Assembly: GCF_007176755.1 (NCBI RefSeq)
Contig: NZ_BJTV01000008.1
Coordinates: forward strand, 1-64,000
Length of the DNA stretch: 64,000 nt
Direction: 5' to 3'
Source: Streptomyces sp. 1-11
GTDB lineage: Bacteria; Actinomycetota; Actinomycetes; Streptomycetales; Streptomycetaceae
A model generated the notes under the pieces. It made no database searches and was not told where the DNA came from. It worked only from the letters and a program-made list of their open reading frames with translations. Below, piece after piece: positions 7,464 through 49,448 of this stretch (positions are counted from its first letter, which is position 1; the number at the start of each line of letters is the position of its first letter). The translations under genes were made by a program, and so were the position numbers.

Positions 7464-8849
7464 TCAGCCCCACGTCGCCGAGTAGTGCCGCTGGTACGCC
7501 CTGCGGTCCTGCTCGGAGCGGATGTACCGGGTCGCGACGAGAGCGATCAGGCTGCCCGCGACGACCAGCAGACCGGGCCCCACGGTCCGGGTGTCCGTGA
7601 GCCGTGCCAGCAGCGTCCGCCCCTCGTCGCCGCCCGTGACGGGCGCCGCGGAGCCGGGCGAGGCGGCGCTCGGCGCGGCGGCGCCCCGCGAGGCCGGGGC
7701 GGACGGCGCGGGGGAGGACGCCGCGCCCTGCCCGCCGCCGGCGTTCCCCGCCGACACCAGGAGCCGGACGTTCAGCGCGGTCAGCGCCTTGGTCACCGGC
7801 TGGAAGAACGTCGTGCCGCCCGTGGTGCAGTCGCCGCTGCCGCCCGAGGTGACGCCCAGCGCGACGCCCTCGGAGAACAGCGGGCCGCCGCTGTCGCCGG
7901 GTTCGGCGCACACATCGGTCTCGATGAGCCCGGTGACGGTGCCTTCCGGGTAGTTCACGGTCGCGTTCAGGGCGGTCACCCGGCCGTCGTGCAGCCCGCT
8001 GGTGCTGCCGCTGCGGAACACCCGCTGGCCCACCGACGGATCGGCGGCCCCGGTGATCCGCACGCCCTTGCCGCCGCCCACCGCGACCACGTCCGCGCCG
8101 GGACCCGCCCGGCCCGAGTCGTACCGGACCAGCGAGAAGTCGCTGCCGGGGAAGGCGCTGTTCACCGTCGTGCCGAGCCGGCGGTCGCCCCCGTTGTCGG
8201 CGAACCAGGTCGAGCCGGCGGGCCCGCAGTGGCCGGCGGTCAGGATGAAGTCCCGCTGCCCGTCGGTGACGTTGAACCCCGCCGAGCAGCGGCCGCCGGT
8301 GGACAGGATCGGCTGCGCCCCGTTCAGCCGCGCGGTGAAGGCGCCCTTCGTACGCTCCATGTGCACGAAGCCGCCGATGCCCGAGGCCACTCGGCTCATC
8401 CGGGACCAGTCGGCCGCCGACACGGTGCGGTCGGCCCGCACCACGACCCGGTTGGTGCGGTAGTCCACCGCCCACGCGGTGCCCGCGACCCGGGGCGCCG
8501 AACTCAGCGTGCCGGTGGCCGACTTGAGCTCGTCCATGCTGTGCGCCACGACCTTGGCCTCGGCCCCCGCGCCGCGCACCGTCCGAGCCGCCCGCTCGTC
8601 CGTCACCGCCACCACCGGACGGCCGTCGGCGCCCAGCCAGCTCCCCGCCGTGCGCGCCGTGCCGAGCCGGGCCACGAGCGCGGCCCCGGGACCGCCCTCC
8701 GCGCCCGCCGAGCGCAGCGGCCGGGCGGATGCCGGGGGAGTCTCGCTCGCCATCGCGGCCTGCGCGGCCATCGCACCCCCCAGCAGGAGTCCGCCGACCG
8801 CCGCCAGCCGTGTCACCCGCCTCACGACCCGTCGTCGTGCGTGCCTCAT
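7464..8849 (-). CDS. Membrane-anchored S1-family (chymotrypsin-like) serine protease
   Basis: A 461-aa exported protease. It has a signal peptide (about 1-35), a pro-region (about 36-175), and a streptogrisin/alpha-lytic-type catalytic domain (about 180-365) with H207 in TAGHC, D237 in SDFSLV and S320 in GDSGGP. Disulfide-forming cysteines include C188/C208 and C314/C343. Unlike freely secreted streptogrisins it continues into a Ser/Ala/Pro-rich linker (370-415) and a C-terminal membrane helix (about 427-446, GLLVVAGSLIALVATRYI) with a basic tail. The protease should therefore stay tethered outside the membrane. Substrate unknown. Confidence 0.88.
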   Translation of the reverse strand: MRHARRRVVRRVTRLAAVGGLLLGGAMAAQAAMASETPPASARPLRSAGAEGGPGAALVARLGTARTAGSWLGADGRPVVAVTDERAARTVRGAGAEAKVVAHSMDELKSATGTLSSAPRVAGTAWAVDYRTNRVVVRADRTVSAADWSRMSRVASGIGGFVHMERTKGAFTARLNGAQPILSTGGRCSAGFNVTDGQRDFILTAGHCGPAGSTWFADNGGDRRLGTTVNSAFPGSDFSLVRYDSGRAGPGADVVAVGGGKGVRITGAADPSVGQRVFRSGSTSGLHDGRVTALNATVNYPEGTVTGLIETDVCAEPGDSGGPLFSEGVALGVTSGGSGDCTTGGTTFFQPVTKALTALNVRLLVSAGNAGGGQGAASSPAPSAPASRGAAAPSAASPGSAAPVTGGDEGRTLLARLTDTRTVGPGLLVVAGSLIALVATRYIRSEQDRRAYQRHYSATWG

Positions 8850-9001
8850 GCATGGCTCCCGAACACCGGACGCGCGATGCCCGTACCGGCATCGCGGGGG
8901 TCCCGACCGGCGTCGGGCGCCCGGCGTTCAGTACGCGGCCCGGCCCGGCGGCGTTCACCGGCGGAGACGATCGGTCCCACCGGTCCGGCGGAGCCGTGCG
9001 C

Positions 9002-9832
9002 TCAGCGCTTGCGCGCCACCGCGCCGAACATGGCGACCTCCTCCGGCTCCGGCCCGGCGTCGGCGTCCGGGCGCCAGCGCGAGCAGGACACCACACCCGG
9101 CTCCAGCAGCTCCAGACCGTCGAAGAACCGGGCCACGTCCTCGGGCGTGCGCTGGGTCAGCTTCGGAGTGCCGTGCTCGTTCCAGAACTTGACGGCCTCG
9201 TCCACGTCCGGCATCGCCGGACTGGTGACGGTGTGCGACAGCACCAGGTGGCTGCCGGCCGGCAGCCGGTCGGTCAACTGCCGCACCAGGCCGTACGGGT
9301 CCTCGTCGTCGCCGATGAAGATGACCACGCCGAGCAGCATCAGCGCCACCGGCCTGCTGAAGTCCAGCGTCCTGGAGGCGTGTTCGAGGACGGCGTCCAC
9401 GTTGCGCAGATCCTCGTCCAGGTAGTCGGTGCGCCCCTCCGGCGTGCTGGTGAGCAGCGCCCGGGCGTGCGCGAGCACCAGCGGGTCGTTGTCGACGTAC
9501 ACGATCCGCGCCTCCGGCGCGATCCGCTGGGCGACCTCGTGCGTGTTGTCGGCGGTGGGCAGCCCGGTGCCGATGTCCAGGAACTGCCGGATGCCGACCT
9601 CGCCGACCAGGTGCCGTACCGCCCGGCCCAGGAACAGCCGGTCGGCGCGCGCGTAGTCCCCGATGCCCGGGTGGAGCCCGCGGATCTGGTCGCCGGCCGC
9701 GCGGTCGACCTCGTAGTTGTCCTTGCCGCCGAGCCAGTAGTTCCATATCCGGGCCGTGTGCGGCCGGCCCGTGTCGATGCGGGCGCGCAGCGACACGGCC
9801 ACGTCGTTGGTGGCTGCCGGGTTGTCGGTCAC
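9002..9832 (-). CDS. SAM-dependent methyltransferase, DUF574 family
   Basis: A 276-aa protein of the actinobacterial DUF574 methyltransferase-like family. The opening RARIDTGRPHTARIWNYWLGGKDNYEVDR is the family's signature N-terminus. The SAM-binding glycine motif is FLDIGTGLPTADNTHEVAQ, with the acidic end of beta-2 at YVDNDP. I chose the GTG at 9832 because AGGAGC lies 9 nt upstream and the conserved part begins shortly after. Such proteins are numerous in Streptomyces, often near regulators, and their substrates are mostly unknown. It diverges from the MalY-type aminotransferase across a palindrome. Confidence 0.85.
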   Translation of the reverse strand: MTDNPAATNDVAVSLRARIDTGRPHTARIWNYWLGGKDNYEVDRAAGDQIRGLHPGIGDYARADRLFLGRAVRHLVGEVGIRQFLDIGTGLPTADNTHEVAQRIAPEARIVYVDNDPLVLAHARALLTSTPEGRTDYLDEDLRNVDAVLEHASRTLDFSRPVALMLLGVVIFIGDDEDPYGLVRQLTDRLPAGSHLVLSHTVTSPAMPDVDEAVKFWNEHGTPKLTQRTPEDVARFFDGLELLEPGVVSCSRWRPDADAGPEPEEVAMFGAVARKR

Positions 9833-9866
9833 GTGGGTCAGCTCCTGGTCGCCTGGTGGGGATGGT

Positions 9867-9909
9867 GCACCGGTCAAGACGCAATCTAGACGCCCGAGTT
9901 GACCGGTGC
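9867..9909. promoter_or_regulatory. 11-bp inverted repeat in a divergent promoter region
   Basis: GCACCGGTCAA (9867-9877) and TTGACCGGTGC (9899-9909) are perfect complements with 21 bp between, so the half-site centres are 32 bp apart (three helical turns). Each arm also carries a TTGACC -35-like hexamer pointing outward into its own strand, so a dimeric regulator here could control both the methyltransferase and the aminotransferase. Confidence 0.5.
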
Positions 9910-10033
9910 GGCGGACCCGGGAATTCCACGGGCGCCGCGCGTCCGCCCGGCCCGCCGCGCTGCCCGCACCACGTGCCCCACCTGCCCGGCCTGCCCCGTT
10001 TCCGCACGGAGCGCGGGAGCCTATCTTGGGCCC

Positions 10034-11212
10034 ATGACCAGCATCCCGCACGGCACTCCAGGCGAACCCGACCCGCTGCGCGCCCTCGGACTCGAGCGGC
10101 TGCGCCGGCGTACGAGCATGAAGTGGCGCACCTACCCCGAGGACGTGCTGCCGCTGTGGGTGGCCGAGATGGACGTCCCGCTCGCCGGGCCCGTCGTCCG
10201 CGCCCTCACCGACGCGCTCGCCCTCGGCGACACCGGCTACCCGGCCGGCACGGCGTACGCCGAGGCGCTGGCCCGCTTCGCCGCCGAGCGCTGGAACTGG
10301 GACGGGATCGACATCGGGCGCACCGCGATCGTGCCGGACGTGATGCTCGGCGTGGTCGAGATGCTGAAGCTGGTCACGGGACCCGGCGATCCGGTCGTCG
10401 TCAACTCGCCCGTGTACCCGCCGTTCTACCAGTTCGTCACCCATCTGGACCGCCGGGTGGTGGAGGCCCCGCTCGGCCCCGGCGGGCGCCTCGACCTCGA
10501 CCTGCTGGCGCGCACCTTCCGGGAGGCGGCGGCCGGCGGCGGCCGGGCCGCCTTCCTGCTGTGCAGCCCGCACAACCCCACCGGCACGGTGCACACCGCC
10601 GCGGAGCTCGCCGCCGTCGCGGACCTCGCCGAGCGGTACGGCGTCCGGGTCGTCGCGGACGAGATCCACGCCCCGCTCGTCGCCCCCGGCGTCACCTTCA
10701 CGCCGTACCTCGGCGTGCCGGGCGCCGAGCGCGGGCTGTCGCTGATGTCCGCCTCCAAGGGCTGGAACCTGGCCGGCCTCAAGGCCGCGCTCGCCCTCGC
10801 CGGACCCGGTGCCGCCGCCGACCTGGCCCGCATGCCCGAGGAGGTGAGCCACGGTCCCAGCCACCTCGGGGTGATCGCCCACACCGCCGCCCTGAACGAG
10901 GGCGCCGGCTGGCTCGACGCCCTGCTGGCCGGGCTCGACGCCAACCGGCGGCTGCTCGTCCGCCTGCTGGCCGAGCACCTCCCGGCGATCCGCTACGACC
11001 CGGCCGAGGCCACCTACCTGGCCTGGCTCGACTGCCGGGCGCTCGGCCTCGGCGACGACCCCGCCGCGGTGTTCCTGGAGCGCGGCCGGGTCGCGCTCAG
11101 CTCCGGCCTGCCCTTCGGCACCGGCGGGGCGGGGCACGCCCGTCTGAACCTGGCGACCTCGCCGGAGATCCTCACCGAGGGGGTGCGCCGGATGGCCGCG
11201 GCGGTGGCCTGA
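10034..11212 (+). CDS. PLP-dependent aminotransferase, MalY/PatB (C-S lyase) type
   Basis: A 392-aa fold-type-I PLP enzyme of the MalY/PatB group, which cleaves cystathionine-like C-S bonds or transaminates. Visible family marks are [13 protein letters not shown] near residue 42, NSPVYPPFY near 124, SPHNPTGTV near 178, ADEIHAPL near 208, and the Schiff-base lysine K242 in [12 protein letters not shown]. Length is normal. The ATG at 10034 has only a weak GGGAGC upstream. It shares a divergent control region with the DUF574 methyltransferase, which might link it to sulfur or methionine metabolism (inference). Confidence 0.87.
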
Positions 11213-11734: not shown

Positions 11735-12151
11735 TCAGCTCCAGGCGCGGAAGGGCTCGTCGACGAGCTGGAACACCGGCTCGCCGCGCACCGGGTCCTT
11801 GGCCGTGGAGAGCCGTACCCGGTCCCCGCTGTGGATGCCGATCGGCGGTCCCATGACCCGGCCCCGGACGACGAACCCCTCGCTCATCTCGATCAGCGAA
11901 ACGTTGCGCGCGGCGGGGGTGTTGCGGTGGACCACGGTGGAGTGGCGCACCGTGCCGGTGCCCTCGCTGCGCTCGGTGCGCAGTTCGCTGCCCTGGCACA
12001 CCGGACACAGCAGCCGGTGGTACGTGGCGGTGCCGCACCAGGTGCAGCGCTGGAAGTGGATGGCGTCCCTGGAGTCCGCGGCGGTGGGTTCGAGCAGGCC
12101 CGTCGCGGAGCCGGCCGCCGGATGCGAGGTGCTTGCTGAGTGGTGGTACAC
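11735..12151 (-). CDS. Zn-ribbon OB-fold protein (DUF35 family)
   Basis: A 138-aa protein with a zinc ribbon, C36-x2-C39 and C49-x2-C52, followed by an OB-fold half (about 65-138; TGTVRHSTVVHRN, FVVRGRVMGPP, GDRVRL). DUF35 proteins commonly partner thiolases or acyl-CoA enzymes, though some are annotated as nucleic-acid binding. The GTG at 12151 is supported by GGGAG about 9 nt upstream. It lies downstream of, and in the same direction as, a TetR gene but has its own promoter, CATAAT at 12245-12250, directly against a palindrome shared with the TetR promoter. TetR control is therefore likely. Confidence 0.8.
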   Translation of the reverse strand: MYHHSASTSHPAAGSATGLLEPTAADSRDAIHFQRCTWCGTATYHRLLCPVCQGSELRTERSEGTGTVRHSTVVHRNTPAARNVSLIEMSEGFVVRGRVMGPPIGIHSGDRVRLSTAKDPVRGEPVFQLVDEPFRAWS

Positions 12152-12244
12152 GCTGGTCAACTCCCTGCGCTCGGCCGGAATCCCGCGTGCCCGGCGTGAA
12201 CCGGGCACGTCGCACGGCCCCGGTGCCACCGTGCACGCCCACAG

Positions 12245-12263
12245 ATTATGGCACTCAGTGTCA
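12245..12263 (-). promoter_or_regulatory. TetR-type operator and -10 box of the DUF35 gene
   Basis: Read on the minus strand, TGACACTGAGTGCCA (12263-12249) runs into CATAAT (12250-12245). The same arrangement occurs upstream of the TetR gene, with the shared core CACTGAGTG followed by a T/C and CATA. An operator filling the -35/-10 spacer is typical of repression. A degenerate GGCACTCGGTACC lies next to it at 12272-12284. Confidence 0.65.
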
Positions 12264-12333
12264 CTCGTAAAGGCACTCGGTACCCCGAACTTGTGGAGGT
12301 CCGGTGCGCCACGAGCGGCCGGGCGCGACCGGG

Positions 12334-13056
12334 TCAGACGTGGCCGGCCAGCGCCTCGAACTCCTGCACCACCCGCCACAGCGGGGTGGCCCGGCGGGCC
12401 ACGAGCACGACCACGTCGTCGGGGCCGTCGTCGCCCGGCCGCGCGGCGGGGCTCACCCGCACCGGCTGGGCGAAGGCGGCCTGCACGTGTGCGAGGGCGT
12501 GGTCCACCTCGGCGCCCGCGTCGCCCCTGCCGTCCGAACGCAGCCAGGAGCGCAGGGCGTTGTTGTGCGCGGCGACCACGGCGGCCGCGACCACGTCGGC
12601 GCGCAGCGTTCCGTCGGGCCGCCCGGCGAACCGCCGGCGCAGGTACTCGGCCAGCGCGCGCTCGTAGCGCCACACCACCGACAGCTCGTAGGCGCGCAGT
12701 CCTGGAACCCGCTTGGTGAGGCGGTAGCGCTGCACGGAGAAGGTCGGGTTCTCCGCGTACATCCCGAGCACCAGCCGGGCCGCGTCGCACACCCGCCGCA
12801 CCGGTTCGTCGTCCTCCGCGCTCGCGGCGAGGAACGCGGTCATGTCGGCGAGGCAGCCCTCGTGGTCGGGGAAGACCACGTCCTCCTTGGACGGGAAGTA
12901 GCGGAAGAACGAGCGGCGGCCGACCCCGGCCAGCGCCACGATGTCGTCCACGGTGGTCTGTTCGTACCCGCGTTCCAGGAAGAGCCGGAAGGCCGCCGCG
13001 ACCAGGGCCTCCCGCATCGGCGGCTTCGCGGCCGGCGCCGCGCTGCTGGAGCTCAT
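12334..13056 (-). CDS. TetR-family transcriptional regulator
   Basis: A 240-aa regulator. The N-terminal helix-turn-helix (about 15-60) is typical: REALVAAAFRLFLERGYEQTTVDDIVALAGVGRRSFFRYFPSKEDV. The C-terminal ligand domain (about 70-240) is helical. I place the start at 13056, not at the upstream ATG at 13086, because that upstream codon lies inside the -10 element (CATATG) of the promoter. The operator core next to that -10 is repeated in front of the DUF35 gene, which points to autorepression plus control of its neighbour. The ligand is unknown. Confidence 0.85.
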   Translation of the reverse strand: MSSSSAAPAAKPPMREALVAAAFRLFLERGYEQTTVDDIVALAGVGRRSFFRYFPSKEDVVFPDHEGCLADMTAFLAASAEDDEPVRRVCDAARLVLGMYAENPTFSVQRYRLTKRVPGLRAYELSVVWRYERALAEYLRRRFAGRPDGTLRADVVAAAVVAAHNNALRSWLRSDGRGDAGAEVDHALAHVQAAFAQPVRVSPAARPGDDGPDDVVVLVARRATPLWRVVQEFEALAGHV

Positions 13057-43778: not shown

Positions 43779-45104
43779 ATGCCCGCACGCACCCGTCTTC
43801 CGGTGCTCGCCCTCGCCGTCGCCGCCTGTCTGGGCGCACAGGCCACCGCGGCGCTGCCCGCCGCCGCCTCGGACACCGTCGTGTCCCGGGGCGTCACCAT
43901 CCCCGCCTTCTACGACCCGCCCGCCACCCTGCCCGCCGCGGACGGCGCCCTCGTGCGCAGCGAGCACCTTCCGCTCGCGCTGAGCCTGCCCGGCCTCGAC
44001 GGCCCGCTGCCCGGCCGCGCCACCCGGCTGATGTACAAGTCGACCGACTCGACCGGGAGTCCGGTCGCCGTGACCGGCGCCTACATCGAACCGGCCGCCG
44101 TCTGGAAGCACGGCGGAGCGCGCCCCCTGGTCGCCGTCGCGCCCGGCACCATGGGGCAGGGCGACCAGTGCGCCGCCTCACTCGGCCTGGAACACCCGCT
44201 GAGCGTCAACGCCCGGACGCTGTCGGTCGGTTACGAGGACCTGGCGATCTACCGCCTGCTCGCCAGGGGCGTCGCCGTCGTCGTCACCGACTACGCCGGC
44301 CTGGGCGCCACCGACCGGCTGCACACCTACGTCAACCGCCTCGACGGCGGGCACGCCGTGCTGGACGCCGTGCGCGCAGCCCGGAACCTGCCGGGCACGT
44401 CCGTGACGGCCGCCTCGCCCGTCGGACTGTACGGCTACAGCCAGGGCGGCGGCGCCACGGCCTCCGCCGCCGAACTCCAGCCGGCCTACGCCCCCGACGT
44501 CACCCTGGCCGGCACCTACTCGGGCGCCCCGCCCGCCGATCTGACCGCCGTCACCAGGGCGATCGACGGCAGCGACCTGGCCGGCGCCCTCGCCTGGGCC
44601 GTCAACGGCTTCCTGCAGGCCGACCCCGCCCTGCGGCCGATCGCCGACAAGCATCTCGACGCGGCGGGCAAGGCGGCGCTCCGAGACCTGTCGACCATGT
44701 GCGTCGGAGACGCCATCCTCTCCTACAACTCGGCGCACAGCACCGCCTGGACGACGGACGGCTCCTCCCTCAGCGACGTCATCGCGGCCGAGCCCGCGCT
44801 GCGGGACTTCCTCGACCGGCAGCGCATCGGCCGGGCGAAGCCGGCCGGGCCGGTCCGGGTGGCGACCGGGGTCAACGACGACCTGGTCCCGCACGCGCAG
44901 GCCCGCGCCCTCGCCGTCGACTGGTGCCGCAAGGGCGCCGACGTCACCTACGCGCCGGTCGTGGCGCCCCCGTTGGGCCGCTCCCTGCTCAACCACTTCG
45001 CACCGCTGATCGCCGACCAGGGCGACGCCATCGACTGGCTGACCGACCGCCTGGCCGGCAAGCCCGCCGGTTCCACCTGCTGGTCGCTGCCCGTCCGGCC
45101 CTGA
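43779..45104 (+). CDS. Secreted LIP-family lipase/esterase
   Basis: A 441-aa exported alpha/beta-hydrolase of the LIP (secretory lipase) family. The signal peptide ends near residue 31 (ALPAAASD). The mature enzyme shows PLVAVAPGTMGQGDQCAAS (oxyanion region), VVVTDYAGLGATDRLHTYVN and the nucleophile elbow GLYGYSQGGGATASAA with Ser near 228. The acidic residue is probably in VATGVNDDLVPH and the His in LNHFAPL near 410. CGGGAGG precedes the ATG. It should hydrolyse triacylglycerols or other esters outside the cell. A palindrome overlaps its promoter. Confidence 0.88.
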   Translation: MPARTRLPVLALAVAACLGAQATAALPAAASDTVVSRGVTIPAFYDPPATLPAADGALVRSEHLPLALSLPGLDGPLPGRATRLMYKSTDSTGSPVAVTGAYIEPAAVWKHGGARPLVAVAPGTMGQGDQCAASLGLEHPLSVNARTLSVGYEDLAIYRLLARGVAVVVTDYAGLGATDRLHTYVNRLDGGHAVLDAVRAARNLPGTSVTAASPVGLYGYSQGGGATASAAELQPAYAPDVTLAGTYSGAPPADLTAVTRAIDGSDLAGALAWAVNGFLQADPALRPIADKHLDAAGKAALRDLSTMCVGDAILSYNSAHSTAWTTDGSSLSDVIAAEPALRDFLDRQRIGRAKPAGPVRVATGVNDDLVPHAQARALAVDWCRKGADVTYAPVVAPPLGRSLLNHFAPLIADQGDAIDWLTDRLAGKPAGSTCWSLPVRP

Positions 45105-45882: not shown

Positions 45883-46341
45883 GTGCCCACCTTGCTGATC
45901 GTGCATCACACCCCCTCGCCCAACTGCCAGGAACTGTTCGAGGCCGTCGTCTCCGGCGCGACCACACCGGAGATCGAGGGCGTCCGCGTCGTGCGGCGGG
46001 CGGCGCTGTCCGCCACCGCCACCGACGTCCTGGAGGCCGACGGCTACCTCCTCGGCACCCCGGCGAACCTCGGCTACATGTCCGGCGCCCTCAAGCACTT
46101 CTTCGACCAGATCTACTACCCGTGCCTGGACGAGACCCGGGGACGGCCCTTCGGCTACTGGGTCCACGGCGGCAACGACGTCACGGGCGCCGTCCGCGCC
46201 GTCGAGACCGTCACCACCGGCCTCGGCTGGCGCCGTGCCGTCGATGCGGTGACCGTCACCGGCGCACCCGGCAGGCCCGACGTCCAGGCCTGCTGGGAAC
46301 TGGGCGCCACGGTCGCGGCCGGGCTCATGGACGAGGCCTGA
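45883..46341 (+). CDS. Flavodoxin-like / NADPH-dependent FMN reductase-family protein
   Basis: A 152-aa flavodoxin-fold protein. It opens TLLIVHHTPSPNCQELFEAVVSGA, a phosphate-loop region for FMN, and continues DGYLLGTPANLGYMSGALKHFFDQIYYPCLDETRGRPFGYWVHGGNDVTGAVRAVETVTTGL, the usual order in NAD(P)H-dependent FMN reductases and WrbA-like proteins. The GTG at 45883 follows GGCAGGGTTCGGGGC. It diverges from the methyltransferase (121 bp apart). Electron acceptor unknown. Confidence 0.85.
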   Translation: MPTLLIVHHTPSPNCQELFEAVVSGATTPEIEGVRVVRRAALSATATDVLEADGYLLGTPANLGYMSGALKHFFDQIYYPCLDETRGRPFGYWVHGGNDVTGAVRAVETVTTGLGWRRAVDAVTVTGAPGRPDVQACWELGATVAAGLMDEA

Positions 46342-46616: not shown

Positions 46617-48776
46617 ATGCGAGCGGACGGCCATGCCCCCGGACGGCCAGCGCCGGACGGCCAGGACCCCGGGGAACTGCTGCGCCGGTGCGCCGAGGAC
46701 GTACGGGACGTCGCCGAGGGCATCGGCGCGGTGGCCGCGCGCACCGGCGCGGCCCTGCTCGACCCGCGGCTCACCGGCTCCCCGCACCGCCGCCGCGGGA
46801 CCGCCCTCGCCGCCCGCTGGGCGCTCCTGCGCGCCCTGACCGGCGGGCAGGGCCTCGGCCGTCCGGCGGCCGGGCCGCCGCGCGGCCCGGCACGGCTGCC
46901 CGGCCGTGCCGGACTGCCCGCCTGGGTGGCGGTCACCGCGCTGCGGCTGAGGGTCGCCGCCGTGCTGGCCGGGCACCCCGAGTTCGCCCGCGACCCGGGC
47001 ACCCGGCGGCTGACGGACGCCCTCGCGGCCGGCGGCGACCCGGCGGCCGTACGGTCCCTGCGCGCCCTGTTCCGCGACCCGGGAGCACAGCGCGCCCTGG
47101 CCGGCCTCACCCCCCTGATGGCCGAACTCTTAGCCGTCAGGCGGCTTCTGGCAGGCGAGGCCGGGCCCGGCGACGGACCCGGCTGGGCGCTCGTCCCCGG
47201 CCCGCCGGACGGAGCGCCGCCCGCCGCCCCCGTGCCGCCCGTCCACGCCCGGGACAGGGGCGAGGCCGCGGCCGAGGCCGTCGACCTCACCGAACAGGAA
47301 CGGCAGACCATCGCCGCCGAAGGGTCCTTCCTCGGCTTTCTGCGCAACATCCACGTGCTGTCCGGCGACGGACGGATCCTGGTGCAGAACGTGCGCGGCC
47401 CCGACGGCGTCGTCCGCTACGTCGTCCAGGCCCCCGGCACCCCGCCCGGACGGCCCCGCGACGACGGCCCGCGCGACTTCGCCGACGCCTGGCACGACCT
47501 GTTCGCCACCGACTCGCCCCACACGCGCTCGATCCGGCTCGCCCTCGAGGAGTACGGCATCCCGCGCGGCGCCGAGCTCGCCCTGATCGGGCACGGCGAG
47601 GGCGGCACCGCGCTGCTCAACCTCGCCCGGGACCCGGAATTCTGCCGCGCCCACCGGGTCACCCACGTCATCACCGTCGGCTCCCCGGACGCCGGGCTCC
47701 CCGCCGCCGACCCGGGCACCTGGATCGCCGCCATCACCGACCAGCACGACATGGCGCACGCCTCCGACGGCCGGCCCGGCGGCACCGGGACCGGCCCGGA
47801 CCCCAACCGGTACGCACTCGACTACGCCGGACCCGCCGGCCCGTTCCCGCTGCGCCACACGGTCCGCGACTACATCGAGCACCTGCGGGCCGTCGTCCCC
47901 CAGGCCCGCGAGACCGTCGACGACGCGCTCACGCCCTACCGGGGACCCGTCGTGCGCACCCGGGCCTACCGGCTCAGGAACCGCGCCCACCCGCCCGAGG
48001 GGCACCCCTTCCTCACCCTGCCGACCGCCTCCGTCGCCACCACGGCCGGACCGGTGGACGTACCGGTGCGCTACTACGACTCCTCCGCCGCCCACCTGTG
48101 CTACCTCGTCGACGCCGGGGCGGCGCAGGCCCTGCTGCCCGCCGGCGGCCGGACCGTGCCAGGCCGGGCACGGTCCGGCCGGGCACCCGGCCGGGCGCTG
48201 GCGGTGCTGTCGCTGTACGAGCACCGCTGCTCGACCATCGGGCCCTACACCGAGGTCGCCCTGACGGTGCCGGTGGCCGACCTGTGGCGGCCGCGCCGGT
48301 ACGATCTCGCCGCCGACCTGCTGCGCCGTGCCGACCTGCGCCGTACCGGCCGGCACGTCCTCTCCCTCGCCGTCAGCAGCGAGGAGGCCCGTGCCGTCGC
48401 CCGGGAGGTCTGGGGCCAGCCCGCCACCCTCGGCTCGGCCGTGGCCGACCTGATGGGGCGTCACCTCGGGTTCGCCACCATGGAGACCGGCCTCGTGGTG
48501 ACCGGCCGTCTCGGTCCCGGCGTCCGCTGCCCGCAGCCGGACTGGGCGCTGTACGGCCGGCGCGACGGCTCCACGGTGCGCACCCTCGTCCGCGCCCACG
48601 GCGCACCGCGCCTGCACGCCGGCGCCCGGGTGCGGCTGCGCCTGGACACGGCGGCGGCCGAACCCATGGCCGGACAGCTGCGCCGGCTCGGCCTCGACCG
48701 GGCCCGGCCGCTCCTCGTGCTGCACCAACCGCGGTTCACGGCCCACCGCAGCGCCGGCGCCGTGCTGCCGCGCTGA
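46617..48776 (+). CDS. Two-domain protein: alpha/beta-hydrolase-like plus acetoacetate-decarboxylase-like, both lacking catalytic residues
   Basis: A 719-aa soluble protein. An Ala/Arg-rich helical N-terminal region (1-225) precedes an alpha/beta-hydrolase-like core (about 235-430). The nucleophile elbow reads ALIGHGEGGTALLNLA, with G327 where the catalytic Ser should be. A C-terminal domain (about 480-715) resembles acetoacetate decarboxylase-like proteins (VPVRYYDSSAAHLCYLVDAG, GPYTEVALTVPV, REVWGQPATLG). There the GYPKK catalytic lysine is replaced by GQPAT. Codon 172 is TTA (47130-47132), so translation should need the bldA tRNA. CAGGGAG precedes the ATG. A two-gene pair (small helical protein, acylphosphatase) follows 34 bp later. 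Probably a binding protein or pseudoenzyme. Confidence 0.7.
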   Translation: MRADGHAPGRPAPDGQDPGELLRRCAEDVRDVAEGIGAVAARTGAALLDPRLTGSPHRRRGTALAARWALLRALTGGQGLGRPAAGPPRGPARLPGRAGLPAWVAVTALRLRVAAVLAGHPEFARDPGTRRLTDALAAGGDPAAVRSLRALFRDPGAQRALAGLTPLMAELLAVRRLLAGEAGPGDGPGWALVPGPPDGAPPAAPVPPVHARDRGEAAAEAVDLTEQERQTIAAEGSFLGFLRNIHVLSGDGRILVQNVRGPDGVVRYVVQAPGTPPGRPRDDGPRDFADAWHDLFATDSPHTRSIRLALEEYGIPRGAELALIGHGEGGTALLNLARDPEFCRAHRVTHVITVGSPDAGLPAADPGTWIAAITDQHDMAHASDGRPGGTGTGPDPNRYALDYAGPAGPFPLRHTVRDYIEHLRAVVPQARETVDDALTPYRGPVVRTRAYRLRNRAHPPEGHPFLTLPTASVATTAGPVDVPVRYYDSSAAHLCYLVDAGAAQALLPAGGRTVPGRARSGRAPGRALAVLSLYEHRCSTIGPYTEVALTVPVADLWRPRRYDLAADLLRRADLRRTGRHVLSLAVSSEEARAVAREVWGQPATLGSAVADLMGRHLGFATMETGLVVTGRLGPGVRCPQPDWALYGRRDGSTVRTLVRAHGAPRLHAGARVRLRLDTAAAEPMAGQLRRLGLDRARPLLVLHQPRFTAHRSAGAVLPR

Positions 48777-48810
48777 ACCGAACGCACCCGCAAGGGAGTT
48801 GGGAGCCGTC

Positions 48811-49152
48811 GTGGTCACCGAGTTGCTGCCCCGCACGATGCCCTCGCCTGCCGAGATCCTCGACCGGGCGGTCGCGTTGCGCACCGACGCAGACCTGCTG
48901 GACGGCTACGCCCGGCGGCTGCTCACCACCGCCCGGGCGCTGACCGGCACCGCGGCGCCCGAGTCGAGCCGCCGCGCCCTGGAACGCCAGGCGGCCGCCT
49001 GCCGTGTCGCGGCGCGCAGGCTGCGCACCGCCGCCGACGCGCTGCTCGCCCACCGGCGGACCACCGCGGGCAAACGGGGCAGCCCGCCGGCTGGCGCCGG
49101 CCGCTACGAGCCGTGGGCGGTGCCGGGCGAGGACAGAGGTGCGCGGGGATGA
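48811..49152 (+). CDS. 113-aa helical protein between the two-domain protein and acylphosphatase
   Basis: A 113-aa soluble protein, predicted mainly helical: PSPAEILDRAVALRTDADLLDGYARRLLTTARALTG, then ESSRRALERQAAACRVAARRLRTAADALLAHRR, ending in a Gly/Pro-rich tail. This is a two-helix antiparallel pattern without catalytic residues. I choose GTG 48811 because GGGAG lies about 5 nt upstream; the TTG at 48799 has no room for one. It starts 34 bp after the two-domain protein and overlaps the acylphosphatase by 4 bp (ATGA). Not recognised. Confidence 0.65.
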   Translation: MVTELLPRTMPSPAEILDRAVALRTDADLLDGYARRLLTTARALTGTAAPESSRRALERQAAACRVAARRLRTAADALLAHRRTTAGKRGSPPAGAGRYEPWAVPGEDRGARG

Positions 49153-49448
49153 CGGTACGGCGGCATGTGCGCGTCAGCGGCCGCGTCCAAGGGGTCTTCT
49201 ACCGCGACACCTGCCGACGGCTCGCCGAGGAGCGCGGTGTGGCCGGGTGGGTGCGCAACCTGTACGACGGTGACGTGGAGGCCGTGTTCGAGGGGCGCCC
49301 CGACGACGTCGCCCACCTCGTGCGGTGGGCGGAGCATGGCCCGCCGGCGGCCACGGTGACGCGCTGCACGGACGTCACCGAGACCCCCGAGAGCCTGTCC
49401 GGCTTCCGCGTACTGCCCGACGCGGCGCCCGGCGACGACCCCGGCTAG
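49149..49448 (+). CDS. acyP: Acylphosphatase
   Basis: A 99-aa acylphosphatase, which hydrolyses carboxyl-phosphate bonds in the cytoplasm. The phosphate-binding loop is RVSGRVQGVFYRDTCRRLA with catalytic R19, and N37 lies in GVAGWVRNLYDGDVEAVFEG, matching both invariant catalytic residues. Length is exactly typical (about 90-100). ATG 49149 overlaps the TGA of the previous gene (ATGA), so it is translationally coupled to the 113-aa helical protein. A GGCGAGGAC element lies upstream. The last 10 residues are low complexity. Confidence 0.92.
   Translation: MTVRRHVRVSGRVQGVFYRDTCRRLAEERGVAGWVRNLYDGDVEAVFEGRPDDVAHLVRWAEHGPPAATVTRCTDVTETPESLSGFRVLPDAAPGDDPG

Follow-up and report, generated by a model that had tools for sequence, protein, structure and literature searches.

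Some of the components that we bring together here are familiar from described systems. CLA-DC of Lactobacillus plantarum, which goes under the name of acetoacetate decarboxylase, is reported to isomerise an unsaturated fatty acid with a 10-oxo group (PMC11719350, PMC13365329), and cyclooxygenases (COX) and dioxygenases (DOX) are reported to share Tyr385 as catalytic residue, His388 as proximal ligand and Tyr348 (PMC13049297). Our literature searches, whose coverage left most subscription papers outside, found no description of a fusion between a lipase and an acetoacetate decarboxylase (ADC), nor of the actinobacterial locus described below. We analysed 64,000 nucleotides of Streptomyces sp. 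1-11 (contig NZ_BJTV01000008.1, positions 1 to 64,000; this whole stretch is the window, and its genome is G000), and within it a gene whose product joins a lipase-like alpha/beta-hydrolase domain to an ADC-like domain. With a probability of about 0.6, we read this protein as the remnant of an oxylipin-type pathway, in which the lipase domain is now a pseudoenzyme and the Lys-less ADC-like domain has been retained for lipid binding or isomerisation. Our comparison set comprised 36 distinct fused genomes, namely 35 that were aligned plus L030, with 7 further loci dropped for carrying an identical fusion gene. The features of the protein are as follows.

46617..48776, + strand: fusion protein gene, 719 aa in three domains (helical N-domain, lipase-like alpha/beta hydrolase, Lys-less ADC-like), from the open frame, its being one gene in relatives and the structure model
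46662..47261, + strand: helical N-terminal domain, about residues 16-215, also present in standalone hydrolases and some hydrolase-less proteins
47289..47951, + strand: lipase-like alpha/beta-hydrolase domain, about residues 225-445, from the fold match and Pfam matches in relatives
47595..47597, + strand: nucleophile codon 327, here GGC (Gly); Ser in 22/36 fused relatives
47748..47750, + strand: Asp378, predicted triad acid by alignment, kept in 36/36
47856..47858, + strand: His414, predicted triad base by alignment, kept in 36/36
48024..48773, + strand: ADC-like domain, about residues 470-719, from PF06314 and a Z of 22.1 to the solved ADC 3c8w
48423..48425, + strand: codon 603 (Ala), aligned with the Schiff-base Lys of ADCs, with Lys in 0/36 fused relatives

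The open reading frame translates without an internal stop, and a chance frame is ruled out by its conservation across the 36 distinct genomes. A preliminary description of this gene, made from the sequence alone, had placed hydrolase-like and ADC-like folds in one 719-residue chain and had proposed structure prediction with a fold search as the check, and on this point it was correct. Our AlphaFold2 model, built from an alignment of 52 relatives (A2), has a mean pLDDT of 78.8; an earlier model from 22 sequences was poor (pLDDT 62.3) and was set aside. PDB sequence searches with the whole-family profile, an ADC-only profile and the ADC domain of the window protein reached no ADC, so that a fold search was needed, and the sequence matches that they did return, to AflY (E 0.0047, in the N-domain region), 2dzd (E 1.1) and 4da9 (E 0.61), we read as chance. 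In the fold search residues 471-719 matched the solved ADCs 3c8w, 3bh2, 5upb and 4jmc at Z of about 19-22 (best Z 22.1 to 3c8w_B, with a root-mean-square deviation of 2.4 over 209 residues and 18% identity), while residues from about 215 to 441 matched lipases, feruloyl esterases, plant phospholipase A1 (PLA1) and EDS1/PAD4 at Z of about 8-9.5. The sole Pfam match of the window copy is PF06314 (residues 486-642, 36.4 bits against a cut-off of 29.8), an NCBIfam scan of the protein gave no match, and its hydrolase domain had no match in Pfam. Among the 52 A2 family members PGAP1, Abhydrolase_6 and Lipase_3 match 22, 20 and 20, respectively, and PF06314 matches 21 at E 0.01, with the ADC domain present in 27. 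Both domains are thus genuine, the hydrolase domain being diverged. Pfam by itself would name the window protein a decarboxylase, and it is the missing Lys that argues against this name. As a separate observation on the N-terminal domain, a relative in the region of G416:C1:695397-696008 (L046) carries it but has no hydrolase elbow; a helical tail comes next, and relatives of that tail lie beside other hydrolase loci.

The preliminary description knew of no protein with this arrangement, but as a statement about a unique architecture this does not survive comparison. Full or near-full fusions occur in 16/295 sampled genomes of the genus, and, counting the window genome in both cases, in 6/394 genomes of the class and 4/41 relatives; a pattern search of named species found 22 fusion loci, all labelled Streptomyces. 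In the ADC-like half of the window protein the motif WGQPATL starts at residue 599. Standalone ADC relatives found by the ADC-domain profile (L162-L164) read WGMPKH, and their Lys aligns to Ala603. Across the 36 genomes residue 603 is Ala in 30, Val in three, Thr in two and Pro in one, while Asp573, Arg575 and Trp599 are invariant. Because Lys is absent from all 36, its loss dates back to the ancestor of the fusion family. Two of the Lys-bearing relatives, L162 (466-2406) and L163 (285-2225), are open frames of 647 codons with the ADC domain near the C-terminal end, and the first 370 or so codons of L162 have no Pfam match.

The hydrolase half has a different history. The elbow GHGEG of the window protein starts at residue 325, which makes residue 327 a Gly, so the G-x-S-x-G elbow of serine hydrolases is absent from this copy; it is present in 22/36 fused relatives. 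The 14 others have Gly, including L030, whose elbow reads GHGEGG, and at codon 327 the fused Ser forms carry AGC, the listed Gly forms GGC. Wherever the elbow pattern was found in standalone hydrolase relatives it reads GHSLGG, GHSQGG or GHSEGG, and for this reason we take Ser as the probable ancestral state; the pattern was not found in L010, L046, L059 and L061. The first of these (G012:C1:8680896-8681879) is a paralogue that reads GRGPGG and is missing a large part of the hydrolase domain's second half, an independent nucleophile loss. The preliminary description had treated both catalytic residues as lost, which is true of the window copy (Gly327, Ala603) but merges an ancestral loss of Lys with a younger and recurrent loss of Ser. 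The homologue alignment that it had called for shows the absence of Lys to be conserved and Gly327 not to be: 22/36 keep Ser, which by the description's own criterion counts against its reading of the hydrolase half. Nor is the window copy a lone decayed exception among homologues that keep both residues: many do keep Ser, but Lys is found in none and Gly in 14 genomes across several lineages.

Around the substituted nucleophile, the loop that carries the predicted acid has also diverged. Identity of this Asp loop (352-396) to the consensus of Ser forms with a peroxidase is 0.49 for the window and 0.58-0.87 for the other 12 Gly copies scored, compared to 0.87-0.98 for the ten Ser genomes that make the consensus, each left out in turn. 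Peroxidase-less Ser forms score 0.51 (L026), 0.53 (L023) and 0.82 (L013), and since the first two are diverged and still have Ser, it appears that the pocket can change before Ser goes. AGC is one base from codons for Gly, Asn, Thr, Ile, Cys and Arg, and among these only Gly was seen as a substitution at the nucleophile (14/14). Strain is a feature of the nucleophile elbow, and Gly would keep it folded better than any other residue, for which reason we infer that Ser to Gly as the sole change reflects selection for the fold. One Gly-form copy (L032, 8001-10616) has an Ala-, Pro- and Thr-rich insert of about 150 residues between the Asp and the His.

The neighbourhood of the gene suggests what the Gly forms may have lost. 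Three neighbours in the window are relevant.

45883..46341, + strand: FMN-reductase-like gene, the left edge; the desaturase-like gene next to the fusion in L011 is missing in the window
48799..49152, + strand: small helical protein, the conserved immediate downstream neighbour of the fusion
49149..49448, + strand: acylphosphatase-like gene (named from inspection), which bounds the missing segment on the right

The L011 locus runs desaturase (-), fusion, small gene, haem peroxidase (-), cytochrome P450 (-), ketoacyl synthase (KAS, +), desaturase (+) and acylphosphatase. The window has a shorter run, from the FMN-reductase-like gene to the fusion and the small gene and from there directly to the acylphosphatase; L021 looks alike, and L020 is intermediate, with KAS and desaturase kept at the locus. 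Five early-branching loci (L103-L107) carry the peroxidase near the fusion, and all of them but L106 the P450 as well, so that presence looks ancestral and loss is the likely origin of the window arrangement. The peroxidase belongs to PF03098, and the nearest PDB match of the L011 protein is prostaglandin G/H synthase 2 (E 3.3e-60); its YRWH aligns with the YHWH of COX and is kept in 27/27 aligned loci from 17 distinct genomes. The P450 of Streptomyces loci has the I-helix motif GYQQNATQ or GSQQNITQ, with amides at the position of the usual acid-alcohol pair, which makes a hydroperoxide-rearranging P450 possible there. With the locus desaturases belonging to PF00487 and the KAS being FabF-like, we infer that the relatives have a locus for fatty-acid oxygenation.

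Some further observations concern these neighbours. The small protein, which by eye resembles WXG100 proteins, has no Pfam match; relatives stand at the same position in many fused loci, with weak profile matches near distant ones, and its start is perhaps the GTG at 48811, many orthologues beginning MVTES. A lipase-like gene (named from inspection) lies at 43779-45104 near the fusion and has matches in 6 of 32 loci, many of them too short to judge from, all six being Gly-form (L016, L021, L025, L028, L029 and, partly, L030). The L014 locus (8001-10166, 12104-12589) has the elbow GYSEGG and a partial P450 beside a full-length peroxidase match, perhaps a pathway in decay. Standalone family hydrolases stand near weak haem-peroxidase matches (24-32% identity) in L088, L091, L092, L093 and L099, with Pfam An_peroxidase confirmed for L099 only, and the link between hydrolase and peroxidase may be older than the fusion.

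Co-loss of partner and nucleophile holds when whole genomes are searched. The L011 peroxidase was used as query against 41 genomes, six of which duplicate others by fusion gene, and gave clear orthologues in 17 distinct genomes; L019, judged from its locus, adds one. The peroxidase is present in 18/22 Ser genomes and 0/14 Gly genomes (Fisher P 1.6e-6, ignoring kinship). The window genome has no match at E 0.001, and L020 has only a 28% fragment match. Most Ser forms therefore have a peroxidase, beside the fusion or elsewhere in the genome, usually together with the P450, and in Streptomyces also with KAS and up to two extra desaturases. For the P450 and KAS, thresholds of E 1e-60 and 1e-130 were chosen to separate orthologues from paralogues, and the absences rest on them. 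Among the 35 genomes searched a P450 orthologue was found in 16 (Ser 16/21, Gly 0/14), with none in the window genome at E 1e-60, from the best 50 candidates per genome, a number that was reached in the Gly genomes L020, L021, L024, L025, L028 and L029 and not in G000. In L014 only the C-terminal part of the P450 matches, and G586 has the peroxidase with no P450 at that threshold. From the best 51 candidates per genome, KAS orthologues of at least 80% identity were found in 13/35, including the four Gly genomes L020, L029, G201 and G575, and none of that identity in G000. A desaturase match at E 1e-40 exists in 35/35. Locus copies of 83-100% and of about 51-57% mark most peroxidase-bearing Streptomyces genomes; at the same threshold the window genome gave none of these locus copies, its single match (64% identical) lying on another contig. 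Off-locus copies of 57-66% occur in nearly all of the other genomes too, with L011 giving a partial match only.

We counted the Ser-to-Gly changes on four trees, three from the fusion gene (protein, codon and third-position) and one from rpoB. L030 was left out of the fusion-gene trees for its frame break, its open part alone being used for dN/dS, and has only a fragment of rpoB; the rpoB tree is without G353 (L036, no usable rpoB) and without L019, known from its locus, and L024 (no rpoB match). On the protein, codon, third-position and rpoB trees, respectively, there are 7, 6, 7 and 7 changes if they are taken as irreversible and 4, 5, 7 and 7 by Fitch parsimony, from which we estimate that the change probably arose 4-7 times. 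Every inferred change falls on a peroxidase-less branch, for which the share of branch length gives a crude chance of 0.034 to 0.0003.

Taken together, these results suggest the following course of events. The window protein would descend from a lipase-ADC fusion that belonged to an oxylipin-type locus of actinobacteria, in which the ancestral lipase domain (Ser-His-Asp) may have released a fatty acid, the cyclooxygenase/dioxygenase-like haem protein oxygenated it, and the P450 processed the oxygenated product. The Lys-less ADC-like domain would have bound or isomerised the oxo-lipid, and in Streptomyces the KAS and up to two locus desaturases would have supplied unsaturated chains. In the window lineage, with the partners gone, the nucleophile codon AGC would then have become GGC, and the Asp loop would likewise have diverged, because no partner was left to feed, while the fold and the Asp-His pair stayed. 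Considering that the protein is still under selection, its hydrolase half would at present be a pseudoenzyme module and its ADC-like half may keep a lipid-binding or isomerising role. The computations show the fusion and its folds, the locus, the family-wide absence of Lys, the recurrent loss of Ser together with the oxygenases and the purifying selection, whereas the substrates, the order of reactions and the present role in this scheme are putative. The earlier suggestion of a ligand-binding protein rather than an enzyme is accordingly plausible for the Gly copies; for the family as a whole, the context points to a lipase with an ADC-like lipid-modifying domain.

Several points weigh against this scheme. 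The chemistry and substrates are predicted ones, and a common neighbourhood is no proof of a single pathway. Among L103-L107, a KAS close to the fusion was seen in L107 alone, and a desaturase there in L105 and L107 alone, so that outside Streptomyces neither is a constant component of the locus. The P450 I-helix reads GFVES in L103 and L104, GFAEN in L105 and GFLES in L120, some of which may hold the acid-alcohol pair, and one P450 chemistry across all genera is doubtful. Four Ser genomes (L013, L023, L026 and G169) lack the peroxidase, and loss of the partner need not force loss of Ser at once. The number of Ser-to-Gly events varies with the tree, and Asp378 and His414 are unchanged in all Gly copies, which is odd for simple decay. 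The shift in omega (dN/dS) described next comes from 11 pairs only, of which L011/L014 goes the opposite way (ratio 4.12, at low dS), and the dN ratios of single pairs overlap (0.61-1.03 with peroxidase, 0.91-2.36 without).

Of the alternatives, the one that survives best, though we consider it unlikely, is plain decay, in which loss of the pathway left the entire protein without a use, so that it now drifts towards a pseudogene and Gly counts among many neutral changes. It would account for the partner genes not found in the window genome, for the Asp loop at 0.49, and for the long peroxidase-less branches (e.g. 0.141 for L020 against 0.048 for its sister L011). However, the frame is open in 13/14 Gly copies, the fourteenth (L030) being broken in an assembly where rpoB is fragmented too; the replacement is always Gly (14/14), and both Asp378 and His414 are kept in 14/14. 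Pairwise estimates by the NG86 method also argue against it. The 11 pairs consist of five Ser pairs with peroxidase and six pairs that lack it (five of them Gly-Gly and the sixth, L023/L026, Ser-Ser), and in 6/6 of the latter omega is below 1 for both domains. Pooled omega is 0.26 (hydrolase) and 0.30 (ADC) with the peroxidase and 0.36 and 0.25 without it. The pooled hydrolase/ADC dN ratio goes from 0.80 to 1.38 without the peroxidase, a 1.72-fold rise (bootstrap 95% 1.23-2.44), and the corresponding omega ratio rises 1.65-fold (1.07-2.62). Between the window and its nearest relative L030, omega is 0.44 for the hydrolase and 0.33 for the ADC domain, therefore neither half is free of constraint. 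Both domains are under purifying selection, which in peroxidase-less lineages is relatively stronger on the ADC-like domain.

A bolder idea, for which we see only a slim chance, is that the locus (lipase-ADC fusion, COX/DOX-like oxygenase and P450, with KAS and desaturases in Streptomyces) encodes an undescribed actinobacterial pathway resembling those of prostaglandins or jasmonates, in which the Lys-less ADC would be a new oxo-lipid isomerase or cyclase, and that after loss of the oxygenases, selection repeatedly turns the fusion from Ser to Gly into a receptor or carrier for the oxylipins of others.

Transfer or recombination that carried the Gly allele from species to species, in place of repeated origin, is improbable. 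The protein tree does group most Gly lineages, perhaps through attraction between fast branches, but both codon trees break this group up. Moreover, in the rpoB tree several Gly species have a Ser species as partner at supports of 98-100 (L020 with L011, 100; L032 with L026, 98; L033/L072 with L064, 98), and none of the four trees places L020 with the L025/L028/L029 group. We give just as little credence to an old ligand-binding or scaffold protein that lost both centres by design, as the preliminary description proposed: the window copy does lack both residues in an intact fold, and non-enzymatic proteins of the alpha/beta-hydrolase fold such as NDRG3 are known (PMC7022630), but Ser is present in most fused relatives and in the standalone relatives with an elbow pattern, and the losses of Lys and Ser are separate in time. 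That the Gly form is still a catalyst, its Asp-His pair activating water or substrate without a Ser nucleophile, is the least credible, for although the pair is invariant in 14/14 Gly copies and the same residue was reached repeatedly, Asp-loop residues diverge in most of these copies and the higher relative dN of the hydrolase domain points to relaxed constraint.

The gene provides a natural experiment, in which one catalytic residue has been lost several times in parallel, in each case on branches without the likely metabolic partners, so that genomes can reveal the sequence of steps by which a pseudoenzyme arises. In addition, the conserved bacterial locus of cyclooxygenase-like protein, P450 and lipase-ADC fusion is a testable candidate for bacterial oxylipin synthesis.

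Compared with known systems, the fusion shares with the ADC superfamily (PF06314; 3c8w, 3bh2, 5upb, 4jmc) its fold over 471-719 and a profile match above cut-off, but differs in having no Schiff-base Lys at 603 in any of the 36 genomes and in sitting behind a lipase-like domain. Its likeness to CLA-DC lies in the ADC-family name and in a proposed place in oxygenated fatty-acid metabolism. With class-3 lipases, the plant PLA1 AtDSEL (7x0c) and EDS1/PAD4 it shares the alpha/beta fold (Z 8-9.5) at 9-17% identity, although these have other extra domains and the window nucleophile is Gly. The NDRG family likewise retains the hydrolase fold although catalytic residues are gone (PMC7022630); in NDRG3 the entire triad was lost, whereas the window protein lost the nucleophile only and retains Asp and His. 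As in the fungal DOX-P450 fusions and the cyclooxygenase cascade (PMC13049297), the relatives' loci pair a COX/DOX-like haem protein with a P450, which in Streptomyces has amides (QQN) at the usual acid-alcohol pair. In contrast to these systems, the bacterial genes are separate, a lipase-ADC fusion is added, the P450s of other genera depart from this motif, and searches of the window genome gave neither oxygenase. Oxylipin systems, ADC folds and hydrolase pseudoenzymes are each of a known kind; what is new is their combination, and the repeated disarming of one domain in step with the loss of its partners.

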